NCBI RefSeq assembly: GCF_003711515.1
Contig: NW_021167086.1
Span: forward strand, 649,285 to 713,284
Source of the DNA: Sodiomyces alkalinus F11
Taxonomy: Eukaryota; Ascomycota; Sordariomycetes; Glomerellales; Plectosphaerellaceae
Reading direction: 5' to 3'
DNA length: 64,000 nt
Under the pieces are notes generated by a model, which was not told the DNA's origin, did no database searches, and was given only the letters and a program-made list of their open reading frames with translations. Both the position numbers and the translations under genes were made by a program. Numbering within the stretch: the first letter of the stretch is position 1; each line of letters opens with the position of its first letter. This document shows, piece after piece, positions 8,346 through 17,940 of the stretch.

Positions 8346-9741
8346 ATGTCGGATTCGGAAGAATTGAACGAGATCCCCGAAGACGCGGGCTCCGACCTCT
8401 TCGGTGAAACGGACGACGAGGATATCCTCCCGCGAAGCGAGCGTGGTGCCGGCTCTGACGAGGACGAAGCACGAGAAGGCAGGGGCGAAGCTGGTGACGA
8501 TGACGACGAGAAACGTGTCGGGTCCGATGACGATGAAGACCGTCAGTCCGTTGACGTTCAGAACAAAGTGGTCGAGTCGGTGGAAGTGCAGCGGCATAGG
8601 GTACCCAAGACCGGAGACGGCACCGTATGTTTTATTTCTGTCAAATTCGCGCTCCGGGTTATAGCAAAGCGCAAAAGACTAACCTTCCCTCTCTCTCCCC
8701 CCCTTACAGCTACGATCGTTCCGTGTACCCAAATTCATTCGCATCCTGCCCGAGCTGTACGACCGCGGCACGTTTGAACCCACGGAAGCGGACATTGCCA
8801 ACGCCAAAGCAGAGAACCCCAAGGCGGACATCCGCGTCCGCAAGGACCCCGCGACGGGCCAACTGCAGAGCAACGCCCTGCTCCACCGGTGGAGCGACGG
8901 GTCGCTGACGCTGTCGATCGGCGACGAGCACTTCGAGGTGAGCAGCAAGATGCTGGCGCCGCCGCTGGACAAGGCGTACCAGGAGCTCCAGGACGGGCAC
9001 TACTACGCGGCGGCGCCGAACCTGAGCAGCAACCACTATATGATGGTGGGGCACGTCTCGGAGCAGTACGCGGTGCGGCCCGGCAAGGAGGTGGAGGACG
9101 ACGCGCTGGCCAAGCTGGCGGAGCGCATGGCGGCGGCGTCGCGCGGCGTGCACGAGGCCGACATGATCATCAAGACGGTCAAGGACCCGGAGCTGCAGAA
9201 GAGGCAGGCCGAGCAGGCGGAGAAGGAGCGCATGAAGGCGCAGCGGAGGCGCGAGACGACCCAGGCGAGGCAGGAGGGCGGCGCGGGTGCCGGCGCGCGG
9301 TACGGACGCAGCGGCGGGGCCGGCGCGCTCTCGATCGGCGACCTGGAAGGCCGGAAGGCGGGCGGCGGGTCGCGGAAGAGGGGCGCGTCGGGCGTGGGCG
9401 CGGGGGGTAGGGCGAAGCGGAGACGGCCCGAGTATGACTCGGATGACGATCTTCCGTCGGGGGCCCGGCGCGCGGGAGACGATTACGACCTGGGAGACGA
9501 CTTTATCGCGCCCAGCGATGAAGATCTCAGCGACGAAGGGGGTGGTGATGACGACGACGACGAGGAGGAGGAGGAGGTGCTGGATGATGAGGACGAGGAT
9601 GAGGCACCGCGAAAGAAGAGGCGGCGGTCGGTGGAGTCTGAGGATGAGGACGCCGAGGGGGACCTTGACGATGAGGTTGCGGCGGAATCTACTAGTCGTG
9701 CGAGGAGGCGACCAGTCATTCATGACGAGGATGACGAGTAG
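8346..9741 (+). CDS. leo1: LEO1, subunit of the RNA polymerase II Paf1 complex
   Basis: Leo1 is a Paf1-complex subunit that travels with elongating RNA polymerase II and supports co-transcriptional histone modification. Two exons (8346-8624, 8710-9741) give 436 residues. The order is typical: an acidic Asp/Glu-rich N-terminus (about 1-60), then the conserved Leo1 core from about residue 85 to 270 containing FRVPKFIRI, LLHRWSDGSLTLSIGDEHFE and the segment ending in GHVSEQYAV. A charged helix rich in KRQAEQAEKERMKAQRR comes next, then a long acidic tail of GAC/GAT/GAG triplets ending in DEDDE. The intron has a GTATGT donor and joins in phase 0. Upstream, 1 kb of spacer separates it from divergent MOB2. 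Confidence 0.93.
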
Positions 9742-10492: not shown

Positions 10493-12683
10493 ATGGGGGT
10501 AGTCCTTGCACTCTGGCAAGTGGTGGTGTATGTTGTTCAGTTCTGGCAAAGGGTATGTCTCCTAGTCTCCTATGTCTCCTGTGTCTTCTCCATGCCCCTG
10601 TTCTCCATTGTGAATTCTGGATTGACATGTCAAATACGTTGCGACAAACAGAAATTCCGCGAATGGTACACCCGAAAGAGCCCCGTCGAGCTCTGGCTAG
10701 ACCTCCTCCGTAACGCCGAAACCTTTGAGGAATGGGAAGAGGCCGCCCTCCACCTCGACAACCTGCTAGGACTCGACCTCTGGAGGAATAACCCCACGTC
10801 GAAATACTATGACTACCGTCTCATCAACGAACGCTTAAACTCCCTCGTCGAGGCCCGCGAGGAGGACAACATCAACCAGCTCGTCAATCTCCTACGATCC
10901 GGCCTCGTCCGCAACCTCGGCAACATCAGTTCCCCCAAGCTTTATAACCGCGCCTTCGCCGGGACCAAGTACCTCATCGAAGAATACATCACCCAGGTCG
11001 CCGAAGCCGTCGAAGACGTGTCCGCCCTACCTACTACTCCTCCCCCTCACTCTCTCGACCACCACGCGTCCTTCGTCGCGGCTTCTCCCTCGCAGTGCCA
11101 AGGCTCCACCAGCTCGACGCAAACGGGCCGAAACACGACGCGGAACCGCCCCTCCACGGCCAGCGGCGAGACGACGACCAGTCCTACAACCCTCACAAAC
11201 CAGACCAAGCTGGACTTCCTCCACGATACCCGCCAGGCCTTCGGGCGGAGCACCCTCGTGCTGCAGGGCGGCGCCATCTTCGGCATGTGCCACCTCGGCG
11301 TCGTCAAGGCCCTCTTCCTGCGCGGCCTGCTCCCCCGCATCATCACCGGCACGGCCACGGGCGCCCTCATCGCCGCCCTCGTGGCCATCCACACCGAAGA
11401 AGAGCTCCCCAACGTCCTCAGGGGGGAGGGGATCGACCTGTCGGCGTTTGCGGGGAAGACCGAGGCGCAGGAGAACCGTGCCGACGCCGGCGACGGTAGC
11501 AATAACAATAACGATAACAATAACAACGAAGAGGGGCTGACGGCGGCGAGGAAAAAGGAACAGCAGCAGTCCTTCGCCACGAGGTGGCAGACGCTGCTAC
11601 GGCGGGCGAGACGGTTCTGGAAGGAAGGCTACTTCCTCGACGTCAAGGTGTTGGAGGATTGCGTCCGCGCCAATGTGGGGGATTTGACGTTTGAAGAAGC
11701 GTTTAATCGCAGTAAGAGGGTCTTGAACGTTACTGTGGCTACCGAGGGGCAGGGGGGCGTGCCGACGCTTCTCAACTATCTTACCGCACCCAATGTGGTA
11801 TGTTGGTTTTTTTTCTCCTTTCTTTTTTTCTTTTTTTTCTTCTTTTTTTTGGCAGCAAACAGGCCCTCCCCCCCCCCCCGAAACAAAAGAAAAAAAAGAG
11901 AAACGGGACACCGACGGGACAACGACGGACACCGAAAGTGAGCTGACATGGCAATAGTTAATCTGGACGGCGGCCGTAGCGTCAAATGGCTCCTCGCCAA
12001 GCCTGTATGGCCGCCGAGTGACCACAATCCTCTGCAAGGACGCCCAGGGCAACATCGTACCCTGGGCGCCGGCCAACATCATCGACTTCCGCCACTGGAC
12101 CCACGTGTCGTACTCGGACCGGGAGTCGCCGCTCTCGCGCATCGCCGAGCTGTTCAACGTCAACCACTTCATCGTGTCGCAGGCCCGGCCCTACCTCATC
12201 CCCTTCCTGCAGAGCGACATGCACGGCCCGTCGCTGCTGGAGACGGGGAGCCGCACCACCACGTCGGTCACGGCCTTTCTGGTGCGCATGGTGGGGCTGG
12301 AGCTGCGCCACCGCCTGCACCAGCTCGACACGCTGCGCATGCTCCCCGCGGGGATCCGCCGGTTCCTCGTCGACGAGCGCGTGCCCGCCGCGTCGATGAC
12401 GTTGGTGCCCGAGGTCACGGCGGGGGACTTTGTCAGGCTGCTGTTCGAGACGCCGACGCGCGAGGCCCTCGACTACTGGATCCTCCGAGGCGAGCGCAGC
12501 GTGTGGCCCGCCGTGGCGGCCTTGCGCGTCAGGTGCGCCGTCGAGAACGAGCTCGACCGGTCGTACCAGCGCGTGAGGCGGATTAAGGCTGGCGGGCTTA
12601 GGAGGAAGGGGTCGACGGCGTCGTCTTCGGGACCGGCGGCGGTTCTGGACCAGAAGAAGCAGAAACGACTCGGCGCGGCTTAG
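10493..12683 (+). CDS. Patatin/TGL-like protein with catalytic dyad lost (predicted pseudo-lipase)
   Basis: Belongs to the fungal Tgl3/Tgl4/Tgl5 patatin family of lipid-droplet triacylglycerol lipases. Three exons (10493-10552, 10652-11797, 11958-12683) give 643 residues. The family-specific N-terminal helical region, the patatin core and the C-terminal module (AELFNVNHFIVSQ, WILRGERSVWPAVAALRVRC) are all present. The active site is not. The oxyanion loop reads QGGAIFG instead of SGGGTFG-type. The nucleophile box reads G253-T-A-T-G257 instead of GxSxG, with Ala255 replacing Ser. The Asp-Gly of the catalytic DGS is His451-Val452. An Asn-rich insert lies near residues 304-315. The frame is intact and GC-rich, so a retained non-catalytic role is more likely than recent decay. 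The function is unknown. Confidence 0.87.

Positions 12684-12685
<2 letters not shown>

Positions 12686-12730
<45 letters not shown>
12686..12730. repeat. 45-base poly(T) run
   Basis: Uninterrupted T from the third base after the TAG of the patatin-like gene. Runs of this length are prone to slippage and length error. Confidence 0.9.
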
Positions 12731-13500: not shown

Positions 13501-13784
13501 CACCACCGGAGACTCCACCGCTTCGGCACTTGTGGCGAGGCTTGTGAGCGTCGGAAATGGAAAATGCTGCATGACGTTGCGTTGAGAAAACATAAAATGA
13601 AGACGTTGTCCTCTTGCGACGCACATTCGGTGCGAGGCTCAGGCTTGGAGGAGAGATAATAGGCCCGGGGTTTTTCTTGAATATTCGAATCCCTTGCTTT
13701 CTGGTCCTCAACTGGCGATCGTCAATCAGCTCAGGTTCAAGTCAATTGGTGCTCCAAGGTGCTCACCTATCACCTATTTTCACC

Positions 13785-15212
13785 ATGTTCGCCGGCTTCT
13801 CCCTTCGGACGGCTTTGACGGCCTTGCTCGTCTTGGGCACAGCAACGTCCTCGGTCCTTGCGAGCGATCCCTGTGTGCCGAGAGATGAAGACAAAGATTG
13901 GGTTACGGTCTGGGGCGCCATGCCACAGCTGACTGAACCCCATAACTTGCCTCCGGTGCCCTTTGTAAGTCAATTGCTCCTGAGAAGTTCGGTCAGCGTA
14001 GACCAAGGTTAACACGACCGGCCGGGGGGGAAAAAACAGAACGAGACAGGACGCGTCTTCCACGACAGCACGATCCGCCAAACCGTCAAGGCATCGCTGG
14101 CCACATCGACTCTCCGTCTGGAGATCAGCAACGCCTTTGGCGGCTCCGACCTCCCCATCACCGCCGTCTCCGTGGCCCTCCCGGTAGACCCGTCCCGAGC
14201 CGGCGGTAGCGCCATCCAACCCAACACGGCGCAGGAGGTGACCTTCTCGGGCTCCCGCTCCATCATCGTCCCCCAGGGCGCCCTGGTGCTCTCCGACCCC
14301 ATCGACATCGCCGTCGAGTCCGAGTCGATCCTCGCCATCAGCATCTACCTCGCCGACGGCCAGACCACCAACGACCTCACCTCGCACCCGGGCAGCCGCA
14401 CCACCTCCTGGCTCGTGCACGGGAACCACGTCGCCGACGCCGACTTTAACAACGCCACCCCGTCGGACCACTGGTACCTCATCTCCGCGCTGGAAGCCCC
14501 GCTCAACACCCCCGGCGCGGACGAGGAGGCCGCCACCATCGCCATCATCGGCGACTCCCTCACCGACGGTCGTGGTTCTACCACCAACGCCAACAACCGC
14601 TGGCCCGACCAGCTCCTCGCCCGCCTCAACGCCGACAACAACGCCACCACATCGGCCCGCCGCCCGGCTATCGCGATCCTGAACCAGGGCGCCGGCGGCA
14701 ACCGCGTCCTCGCCGACGGGCTGGGCCCCAACGCCATGGCCCGCATCGACCGCGACGTCCTCTCGCACCCGGGCGTGCGCTACGTCCTCTTCTTCATCGG
14801 CGTCAACGACATCGGCACCGCCGCCGCCGAGCCGGGCCCGCAGGCCGTTGTCGGGGACCGCCTCGCGCAGGCCTTCCACCAGATGGCTACCCGGCTGCGG
14901 CGCCACGGGCTTGCCGTGTTCGGCGCGACGCTGACGCCCATGTCTGGCCCGGGCCAGGCGTACGGCCACCCGGAGCGGGAGAAGACGAGGCAGGGGCTCA
15001 ACGAGTGGATCCGCGCCGCCGAGGGGACGGTGTTCGATGCCGTGGTGGATTTTGATGCTATGGTGAGGGATCCGGAGAACCCGGAGACGTTGGCACCGCC
15101 TTACAACGAGGGGGATCACTTGCACTTGAGCCCTAGGGGGTATCAGGCTATGGCGGATGGGTTTGACTTGGAGTTGTTTGCCAGGTTTGCTGGCGCGGGG
15201 AGGAGGTTCTAA
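13785..15212 (+). CDS. Secreted SGNH (GDSL-like) hydrolase
   Basis: Predicted secreted esterase or lipase; the substrate cannot be named from sequence. Two exons (13785-13964, 14040-15212) give 450 residues. The N-terminus is a signal peptide: basic FSLRTAL, a hydrophobic stretch to about residue 27, then SDPCVPRDE. An N-terminal beta-rich domain precedes the catalytic part. SGNH blocks are complete: block I IGDSLTDGRG (nucleophile Ser233), block II Gly in GAGGNR (Asn281 nearby), block III GVND (Asn316), and block V D419-H-L-H422. N-glycosylation sequons are present, for example NET at 61. The gene is convergent with ERB1, with 246 bases between the stops. The signal peptide and catalytic residues make secretion and activity a fair inference. 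Confidence 0.9.
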
Positions 15213-15458: not shown

Positions 15459-17940
15459 CTATGTCCACAGGATACATGTGCCATCCGCACCGGCACTGGC
15501 GCACCACGGTTCCTGAGGATGCCAGTCCACATCCATGACACCCAACTTGTTGACAACCTTGTGGCCTCTAAGCTGCTTGACCGGCACGATGGTCGGGTTC
15601 TCCATCAGGTCGCTAACCACCTTGCCATGGAAGATCTGCAGCGTGCCGTCGTCGCTCGCGTCGGCGAACAGGGGCAGCCCGCCGCGGTGGAACTTGACGG
15701 CGCGGATGGCCTCCGGGTGGAAGCGCATGGTCTTGTAGGGCCGCGTGGAGAGGTCGAGGTCGTGCCACAGCAGGCGGCGGTCGTACGAGCCGACGATGAT
15801 GTTGTCGCCGCCGGCGTGCACGTCGAAGGACGAGATCCAGCGCGCGCCCGGCTGCAGCACCTTGACCAGCTCGACCTTCTGCAGGTCGTAGCAGCGGATC
15901 TTGCGCTGCGTGGCCACGAACAGCAGCGGGCGCGACGGGTGCCACTGCGCCGTCTGCACCAGGCCCTGGAACCGCTTGAACGGGATCTGCGTGAGGTGCC
16001 GCGACAGCGTGTGGACCGCCACCGAGCTGCGCTGGCCCGTCGGGGACACGGTGCAGAGGTAGTCGCCGCGCCGTTGCCAGCTGATCGCCTTGACCGCTGC
16101 GCGCACCGTCACTTTGAGCAGCACGCCGAGGTCTTCCAGCTTGGCGCCCGGCCGGGACCACTTCGCCGGGGGCTCTTTCTTCGCGTCGGCGGCGGCAGAC
16201 GACGGCTGGGTTCCGTTGGTGGCGTAGCCGAAGCCGGCATCGAGGACGTCGCGGCTGTTCTTGTCGATGCCGTCGGCGCCGCGCGGGGGCACCGTGAGGA
16301 AGATGTCTTCCCCGGCGGCGGCGGCGAGGATGAAGGTGTCCTTGGTCGGACGCCACCGGACGGCGTTGACGGCCTCGTCGAGGCTCAGCTTGGCCATCCA
16401 TTCCTGGCGGCCGGTGCGGAGATGCCAGAGGCGGACCGTGCAGTCGTCGCCGCCGCTGGCGAGCCATTCGCCGTCCGGGCTGATGGCCAGGGACCGGACG
16501 CGGCCCTCGTGGCCGCGGAAAACGGTCTGGCAGGACGTCGGGAACGGCCTCAGCTCTTCGGGACGAGGCAGCTTGGGGAGCAGGGACGAAGGGTCGATGT
16601 TGAGCCTGTTCTTCCGAATACGGGGGGCCAGGTAGAGGTCCAGGCAACGCTCGAAGCGCTCCTTGACCAGGGAGCCGTAGGCCGGGACTTTTCGTAGCGA
16701 GTCGTATTTGGCAGGCACGTACTCCTTCTCCCTCTCTTCCGGGTCCTGCTTCTCCCATTCTTCCCTCTCGGCCTTGGTGGGGACGTACTCGGGCGGCGGG
16801 TTGTAGCTGAGGTCGAAGCCGGGCGGCGGGAGCTTGGGGGCGGCGATGTTCATGACGTTCGGCGGCTTGGCCTCTTCGTTGGCCCAGATGTCGTAGTAGG
16901 TCTCTTCCTTCTCGGCCTCCTCCTTCTCGCGCTCCTCGGGAGGCTTGTACGGCAGGATGCGGCCCTCCTTGATGGCGCGGACGAGCTTGGCGATGCGCTT
17001 GGCCTCGTACTTGGACGGGATGAAGCGACGCTTCGGCTCGGGGGCGGCACTGAGCGGCATCTTTTCCTCGACGGAGGTGAACCATTCGACCATTTCCTTG
17101 ATTATGAATGTTAGCAGTCAATGGATAAGAGATATGGAGTTGGTGAGAAAGAAGAAAAGAATAAAAGATGAAAAAAAGAAAGAAAAAAGAAAGAAAAAAA
17201 GGACTAACAGGGTATGGGTCGTAGCCCTCTTCAGGAATCTCATTCATCTGGACACGACGCAAAAGCTCGAGCTGGTCCTGAGTAAGGTTGAGCGGCTTGC
17301 CGGTAGCGGGATCGGTGAGGCCAGTCCAGCCCTTGGGAATCTCGATGGTTTCGAGGAGGGCATCAAGGGCCTCGCCCGTGGCCGGGCGCATGATCTTCTT
17401 GCCATTGATGTCGTAGCCAATATGGGGGTAGGAGTCGTAGAAGGAGAGGGGGATGTCGCCAATGGTGTTCTCGGGTCCCTGGGCGTCGGAGTCGTCGGAA
17501 TCATACACGGGGTTGATCTCTTCGTACTCGTAGCGGACACCGCCATTGGCGCCGGGAACGACTCTGTAGTTTGGCTCGTCGCCCTCGCCCTCGACTTCGT
17601 CTTCGCCAACTACGACATGGTCCGTTTTGCTGGTTTCGACAAGTTTGCGGTCGAAAGATTCAAGTCCTTCGTCGTCTGAAGGGATCTCGTCGCTTAGGAA
17701 GGCTTCGTCGTCGTCGTCATCTTCGTCCTCGTCCTCGTCGTCGACTTCGCTGTCGTCATTCAAGTCGGCGCCACTGTTCTCAGACCCTGACGTCTCAAAG
17801 TCCAAGTCATCCTCGTCATCTTCATCTTCACTCCCAGACAAGATGCCCTCCAAGGTGGCATGGGCGAGTTCATCGTCCGACACGGGATCGGCATCAGGTA
17901 GCGGTCCTTTCCGCTTCTTGGCGTTTTGTGGTGGCGCCAT
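15459..17940 (-). CDS. erb1: ERB1, ribosome biogenesis factor (BOP1 homologue)
   Basis: Erb1/BOP1 forms the PeBoW complex with Nop7 and Ytm1 and is needed for 27S pre-rRNA processing and 60S subunit assembly in the nucleolus. Two exons (17940-17209, 17096-15459) give 789 residues. A highly acidic N-terminus (about 20-105) is followed by the BOP1NT domain, including [43 protein letters not shown] and [23 protein letters not shown]-terminal WD40 propeller then runs to the end, with [12 protein letters not shown] and a last repeat ending CILWT. The intron uses a GTTAGT donor and an AAG acceptor. The gene is divergent from the Zn2Cys6 gene. Confidence 0.95.

Follow-up and report, generated by a model that had tools for sequence, protein, structure and literature searches.

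The gene at positions 10493–12683 (forward strand) of the window, i.e. the whole 64,000-nucleotide stretch of the Sodiomyces alkalinus F11 genome that was analysed, is, as judged by its sequence, a Tgl3-type protein and a patatin-fold pseudolipase with neither residue of the Ser-Asp catalytic dyad. Its product would probably act (we put the probability at roughly 0.6) as a positive partner of a catalytically complete paralogue encoded in the same genome, C9 (referred to in this analysis as Tgl4-type), most likely on lipid droplets.

The altered active site and its conservation

No Ser-type nucleophile is present in the Sodiomyces protein: the nucleophile elbow (11348–11362, residues 253–257) reads GTATG where GxSxG would be expected, with Ala255 (GCC, 11354–11356) in place of Ser. 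The catalytic Asp motif is also absent. The acid loop (12084–12131, residues 445–460) contains WTHVS, with His451 (CAC, 12102–12104) at the position of the catalytic Asp, and no W-x-D-[GSA] occurs in the protein. Both replacements had been proposed by a sequence-only reading of this DNA, and they are confirmed by the codons and by the alignment with C9, which has GASAG and WIDGS opposite GTATG and WTHVS. The surrounding family blocks FNVNHFIVSQ and WILRGERS are both present, and the block FNVNHFIVSQARPY (12153–12194, residues 468–481) is strongly conserved.

The same reading had counted the glycine-rich oxyanion loop as a third loss, and this had to be rejected. The loop QGGAIFG (11264–11284, residues 225–231) keeps its Gly pair, which is nearly invariant among the relatives described below (G226 in 231/232 and G227 in 232/232 of those with a residue there, out of 240). 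The Ala that follows the pair is also found in a second paralogue, C10 (SGGASFA), which has both catalytic motifs (GTSGG and WKDGS), and, by alignment, in the crystallised PlpD (SGGAARG, elbow GTSMG). At the sequence level the lost elements are two catalytic residues, not three, nor are the losses independent events of this gene, as the missing Ser is inherited, on the tree described below, from before the Dikarya. Given that the Ser-Asp dyad is gone, the protein should be unable to hydrolyse triacylglycerol by the patatin mechanism.

Conservation was measured at the protein level among the matches listed, namely 240 relatives made up of the best 120 of 2326 matches to the full query and the best 120 of 1581 matches to a shorter query. 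Named among these matches are Sordariomycetes, Penicillium, Chlorociboria, Aureobasidium, Hortaea, Morchella, Ascodesmis and the mucoralean Phascolomyces; identity is 85% to S. alcalophilus and 72–80% to Verticillium. The nucleophile column, filled in 238 of the 240, holds Ala in 207, Gly in 30, Thr in one and Ser in none (elbows in the best 120 of 2326: GTATG 101, GTGTG 15, GIATG 4), with G253, G257, A258 and A261 invariant (238/238). For variability, the former Asp column stands at the 84th percentile of 551 columns, and His occupies it in only 144 of 240 rows, gaps included. The absence of Ser is conserved; His451 was rejected as a conserved substitute residue. Invariant Gly and Ala residues together with a variable Asp column argue that the elbow would be held as structure, with the catalytic acid loop free to vary. 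Since no Ser was found in any of the 238 relatives, the Ser-less state is, on this protein-level evidence, old and not a product of decay.

The Tgl3 family and the history of its serine

Assignment to the Tgl3 group is based on several lines of evidence. The protein has the N-terminal DUF3336 domain of the fungal Tgl3 group (10676–11029, residues 29–146; Pfam PF11815, E 3.6e-39), followed by a patatin domain whose Pfam extent spans intron 2 (11255–12008, residues 222–419; E 1.5e-19) and which, together with the predicted fold, places it in the patatin-like (PNPLA) family. Foldseek comparisons with the solved structures of PlpD, patatin and CapE/CapV gave moderate overall TM-scores (best TMt 0.63). 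The PlpD elbow differs in having Ser, as do those of patatin and the CapE/CapV phospholipases. No NCBIfam match was obtained for the four proteins tried, the models in that collection being built for prokaryotes. A provisional sequence of S. cerevisiae Tgl3 (YMR313c; 642 amino acids, Ser237) aligns at 32% identity and shares QGG..FG, FNVN..IVS.ARPYL.P and GERS.WPA with the Sodiomyces protein, as well as the absence of W-x-D-[GSA]; it differs, in this provisional version, in an elbow with Ser (GSSMG) and in the presence of an HX4D motif. On the tree the Sodiomyces protein groups with named yeast TGL3 proteins, apart from the Tgl4-type paralogue (root branch 100/91, with one Tgl4-type row).

A check for a separate, catalytically complete paralogue had been suggested with the sequence-only reading, and two further DUF3336 proteins with both motifs were found in the genome, namely C9 and C10. 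C9 shares DUF3336, the patatin domain and FNVNHFIVSQ with the Sodiomyces Tgl3 (37% identity); besides its two catalytic motifs it differs in the glycine loop (SGGGTFG) and in having VNPHV where the latter has ARPYL.

A search with the core of the provisional S. cerevisiae Tgl3 returned 62 proteins, including TGL3- or Tgl3p-named proteins of Cyberlindnera, Candida maltosa and Sugiyamaella, a Komagataella "Lipase 3", a Saitoella protein and one from the chytrid Phlyctochytrium. The 57 with a residue in the nucleophile column have Ala (36), Thr (9), Gly (3) or Ser (9), these totals being those over 305 rows minus the 238 above and minus three further rows, C9, C10 and the provisional Tgl3 (all Ser). 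The nine with Ser are P0241, P0242, P0274, P0275, P0279, P0298, P0299, P0300 and P0301, of which P0241 and P0242 are 65% and 58% identical to the provisional core. Scanning the 305 rows (nine of them without FNVN as a reference point) for W-x-D-[GSA] before FNVN gave six rows: C9, C10, P0298, P0299, P0301 and P0236, the last without Ser. A long-branched yeast-type pair, P0291 and P0294, shows further site changes (a GAAMS elbow and an RGDPLFG glycine loop).

For the phylogenetic analysis, 68 rows were picked by length and identity from a pool of 302 proteins, C9, C10 and the provisional Tgl3; two were dropped, and IQ-TREE was run on 66 rows by 458 columns, from which the elbow and acid-loop columns had been removed. 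The chytrid part of the tree consists of two rows and the Tgl4-type part of one, and the program warned of long outgroup rows. Branching inward from the outgroup are P0299 and the Phlyctochytrium P0298 (with Ser and W-x-D-S), then Phascolomyces (GTAVG) with P0236 (GTTVG), and then the Dikarya, all without Ser except P0241, P0242 and the provisional Tgl3 in one place and P0274, P0275 (Brettanomyces) and P0279 in another. This second, Brettanomyces-type set has a GSSIG or GSSVG elbow and adjoins Ser-less rows of Ogataea and Ambrosiozyma.

The Ser state changes three times on this tree, and the starred branches force three changes; none of 500 label shuffles gave a number as low (mean 10.4). A history of losses only would take 13 of them, and a two-state model with gain is preferred over a loss-only one (−log likelihood 14.2 vs 34.0, both rooted on Ser), giving a Ser probability of 0.83 at the node of Phlyctochytrium and the rest, 0.02 at that of Mucoromycota and Dikarya, and 7e-5 at the Dikarya. 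Topology tests (p-AU, for groups named after the tree had been inspected) rejected a single group of all 11 Ser rows (4e-58), a union of the chytrid-type rows and both yeast Ser clades (2e-35) and, most weakly, a group of both yeast Ser clades alone (0.011). A tree without the provisional Tgl3 and three long rows again required three changes, with the two later ones each at 100/100. The placement of the first Ser loss is less sure than that of the two later changes, because the branch separating C9 and the two chytrid-type rows from the rest has only 75/64 in this reduced tree vs 97/82 in the full one.

Overall, these results suggest one loss of Ser before the Mucoromycota and Dikarya separated and two regains, in the S. 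cerevisiae Tgl3 clade and in Brettanomyces-like yeasts, both without the Asp motif. The loss implied by the sequence-only reading to be specific to this lineage would thus predate that split. We see an even chance that Tgl3 as a whole was dead as an enzyme before the split and kept as a pseudolipase, with Ser later regained twice and the patatin Asp motif still absent. If so, yeast Tgl3 would be a resurrected enzyme with a non-canonical site or, more boldly, would still act mainly as a Tgl4 partner in the cell.

A putative partner of a Tgl4-type lipase

In the proposed mechanism the predicted fold, glycine loop and elbow backbone are retained while the Ser-Asp dyad is gone, the protein would sit on lipid droplets, and its binding to the Tgl4-type C9 enzyme or to lipid would raise the activity, stability or recruitment of Tgl4, as modelled on the Tgl3/Tgl4 pair of Yarrowia. 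Yarrowia lipolytica Tgl3 (YALI0D17534g) is stated in PMC7762315 to regulate Tgl4, the active lipase, positively, and published reports suggest that it is without a lipase motif and acts through Tgl4. Because that protein is reported both to have no lipase motif and to activate Tgl4, a Tgl4-type partnership appears to be the best reading for Sodiomyces. The two species are alike in the Tgl3 name, in the suggested loss of the lipase motif and in an active Tgl4-type protein alongside, as the Sodiomyces genome combines a Tgl3 lacking the motif with a Tgl4-type gene having both. A Sugiyamaella Tgl3, from the same order as Yarrowia, falls in the family and is Ser-less (GSTVG). The non-catalytic role put forward in the sequence-only reading is favoured by the conservation of a protein without the dyad, and its variant of a regulator of the active paralogue agrees with these accounts from Yarrowia.

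Several points weigh against this partnership. The three papers giving the regulator role all cite Dulermo 2013. Yarrowia Tgl3 is tabulated as a lipase in PMC4815080 and PMC9643831 (in the latter with EC 3.1.1.3), PMC12006985 calls Tgl3 and Tgl4 both lipases, and PMC10995274 swaps their roles. S. cerevisiae Tgl3 is described as a major lipase and acyltransferase, so that the family, in which it is placed by the provisional sequence, is not uniformly inactive. Moreover, the tree includes a single Tgl4-type row, and the presumed orthology to YALI0D17534g is drawn from the name and the Sugiyamaella protein, the Yarrowia sequence itself not being among the matches.

Other explanations have to be weighed against the Tgl4 partnership. 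A lipid-binding protein or droplet scaffold (or sensor) independent of Tgl4, which would organise droplets by holding acyl chains or the droplet surface in the pocket that it still has, is a possible but doubtful alternative: it would account for the retention of an elbow and glycine loop not needed for catalysis, and a helix is predicted at residues 2–27 (model secondary structure), but the Yarrowia protein is reported to act through Tgl4. Somewhat less probable still is non-canonical catalysis, with the protein acting as acyltransferase or hydrolase through other residues. The dual lipase and acyltransferase activity ascribed to S. cerevisiae Tgl3, whose provisional sequence has no Asp motif, speaks for it, as does the conservation of D350 (237/239). 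However, the HX4D motif, which a published report names for the acyltransferase activity of Tgl5, was not found in the Sodiomyces protein: the segment EGYFLD (11624–11641, residues 345–350), which occupies the column of HX4D in the provisional S. cerevisiae Tgl3, has Glu345 for His, and among the relatives in which this column is filled only 3 of 238 (from the set of 240) and 2 of 57 (from the set of 62) have His. The variability at His451 likewise argues against its recruitment.

The two remaining explanations deserve almost no credence, and to the same degree. The idea that an active lipase was recently pseudogenised within the Sodiomyces lineage is contradicted by the conservation of the Ser-less state, in relatives as close as 85% and 72–80% identical, and was rejected; the open frame, GC content at third codon positions (GC3) of 0.84 and introns of the form GTATGT...AG also stand against it. 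An error in the gene model, with another exon supplying GxSxG and DGS, was rejected as well, as the elbow is internal to an exon of 382 residues and the Asp column to exon 3, and relatives from many sources have the same residue states.

The locus is not a new kind of system, because for one yeast there is already a report of a Tgl3 regulator that lacks the lipase motif. How widespread and how old the loss is, together with the inferred return of Ser to a yeast Tgl3 lacking the Asp motif, does seem new; a narrow literature search found no statement of a broad, old Tgl3 loss, of Ser regain or of Tgl3 as a pseudoenzyme or pseudolipase. The part examined of a Fusarium graminearum lipase-knockout study (PMC10269793) contains no mention of the gene. 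At least 19 of the best 120 of 2326 relatives are named "triacylglycerol lipase", and the nucleophile is kept in none of the 120. If this is an old pseudolipase family, such annotations would be misleading, as would engineering plans built on them, and in fungi an active patatin would be teamed with a dead one, in much the same way as ATGL is teamed with CGI-58 in animals. CGI-58/ABHD5, a hydrolase-fold protein without a nucleophile, activates the patatin-type ATGL on animal lipid droplets, and differs from the Sodiomyces protein in being an alpha/beta-hydrolase and not a patatin. With Ser inferred to have been regained in the S. cerevisiae clade, the return of an enzyme inside a pseudoenzyme family would become directly testable.

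Gene structure and neighbouring genes

The gene model comprises three exons and 643 codons in an open frame starting with the ATG at 10493: exon 1 (10493–10552, residues 1–20, with the start of the predicted N-terminal helix), exon 2 (10652–11797, residues 21–402) and exon 3 (11958–12683, residues 403–643 and the stop), all on the forward strand. They are separated by intron 1 (10553–10651, 99 nucleotides, GTATGT...CAG) and intron 2 (11798–11957, 160 nucleotides, GTATGT...TAG). From end to end, the spliced translation is identical to the S. alkalinus F11 database protein P0001 (100% identity, 100% of the length). The earlier description of an intact gene of 643 residues, with complete family blocks, GC-rich third positions in the coding sequence and clean introns, thus holds. 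Intron 2 contains T-rich runs and a 12-base C run (11868–11879), and a run of 45 T (12686–12730), a mononucleotide repeat or assembly-prone site, starts two bases past the stop.

The upstream neighbour (8683–9741, forward strand) is a Leo1-like gene (PF04004, E 3.4e-40), a family name that denotes a subunit of the PAF1 complex. Downstream, a forward frame at 14013–15212 encodes a GDSL lipase/acylhydrolase domain (PF13472, E 5.9e-24) and is preceded by a frame (13596–14012) with a stretch that, judged by eye, resembles a signal peptide. Further on, a reverse-strand frame at 15459–17117 with BOP1NT and WD40 domains represents an Erb1/BOP1-like gene.
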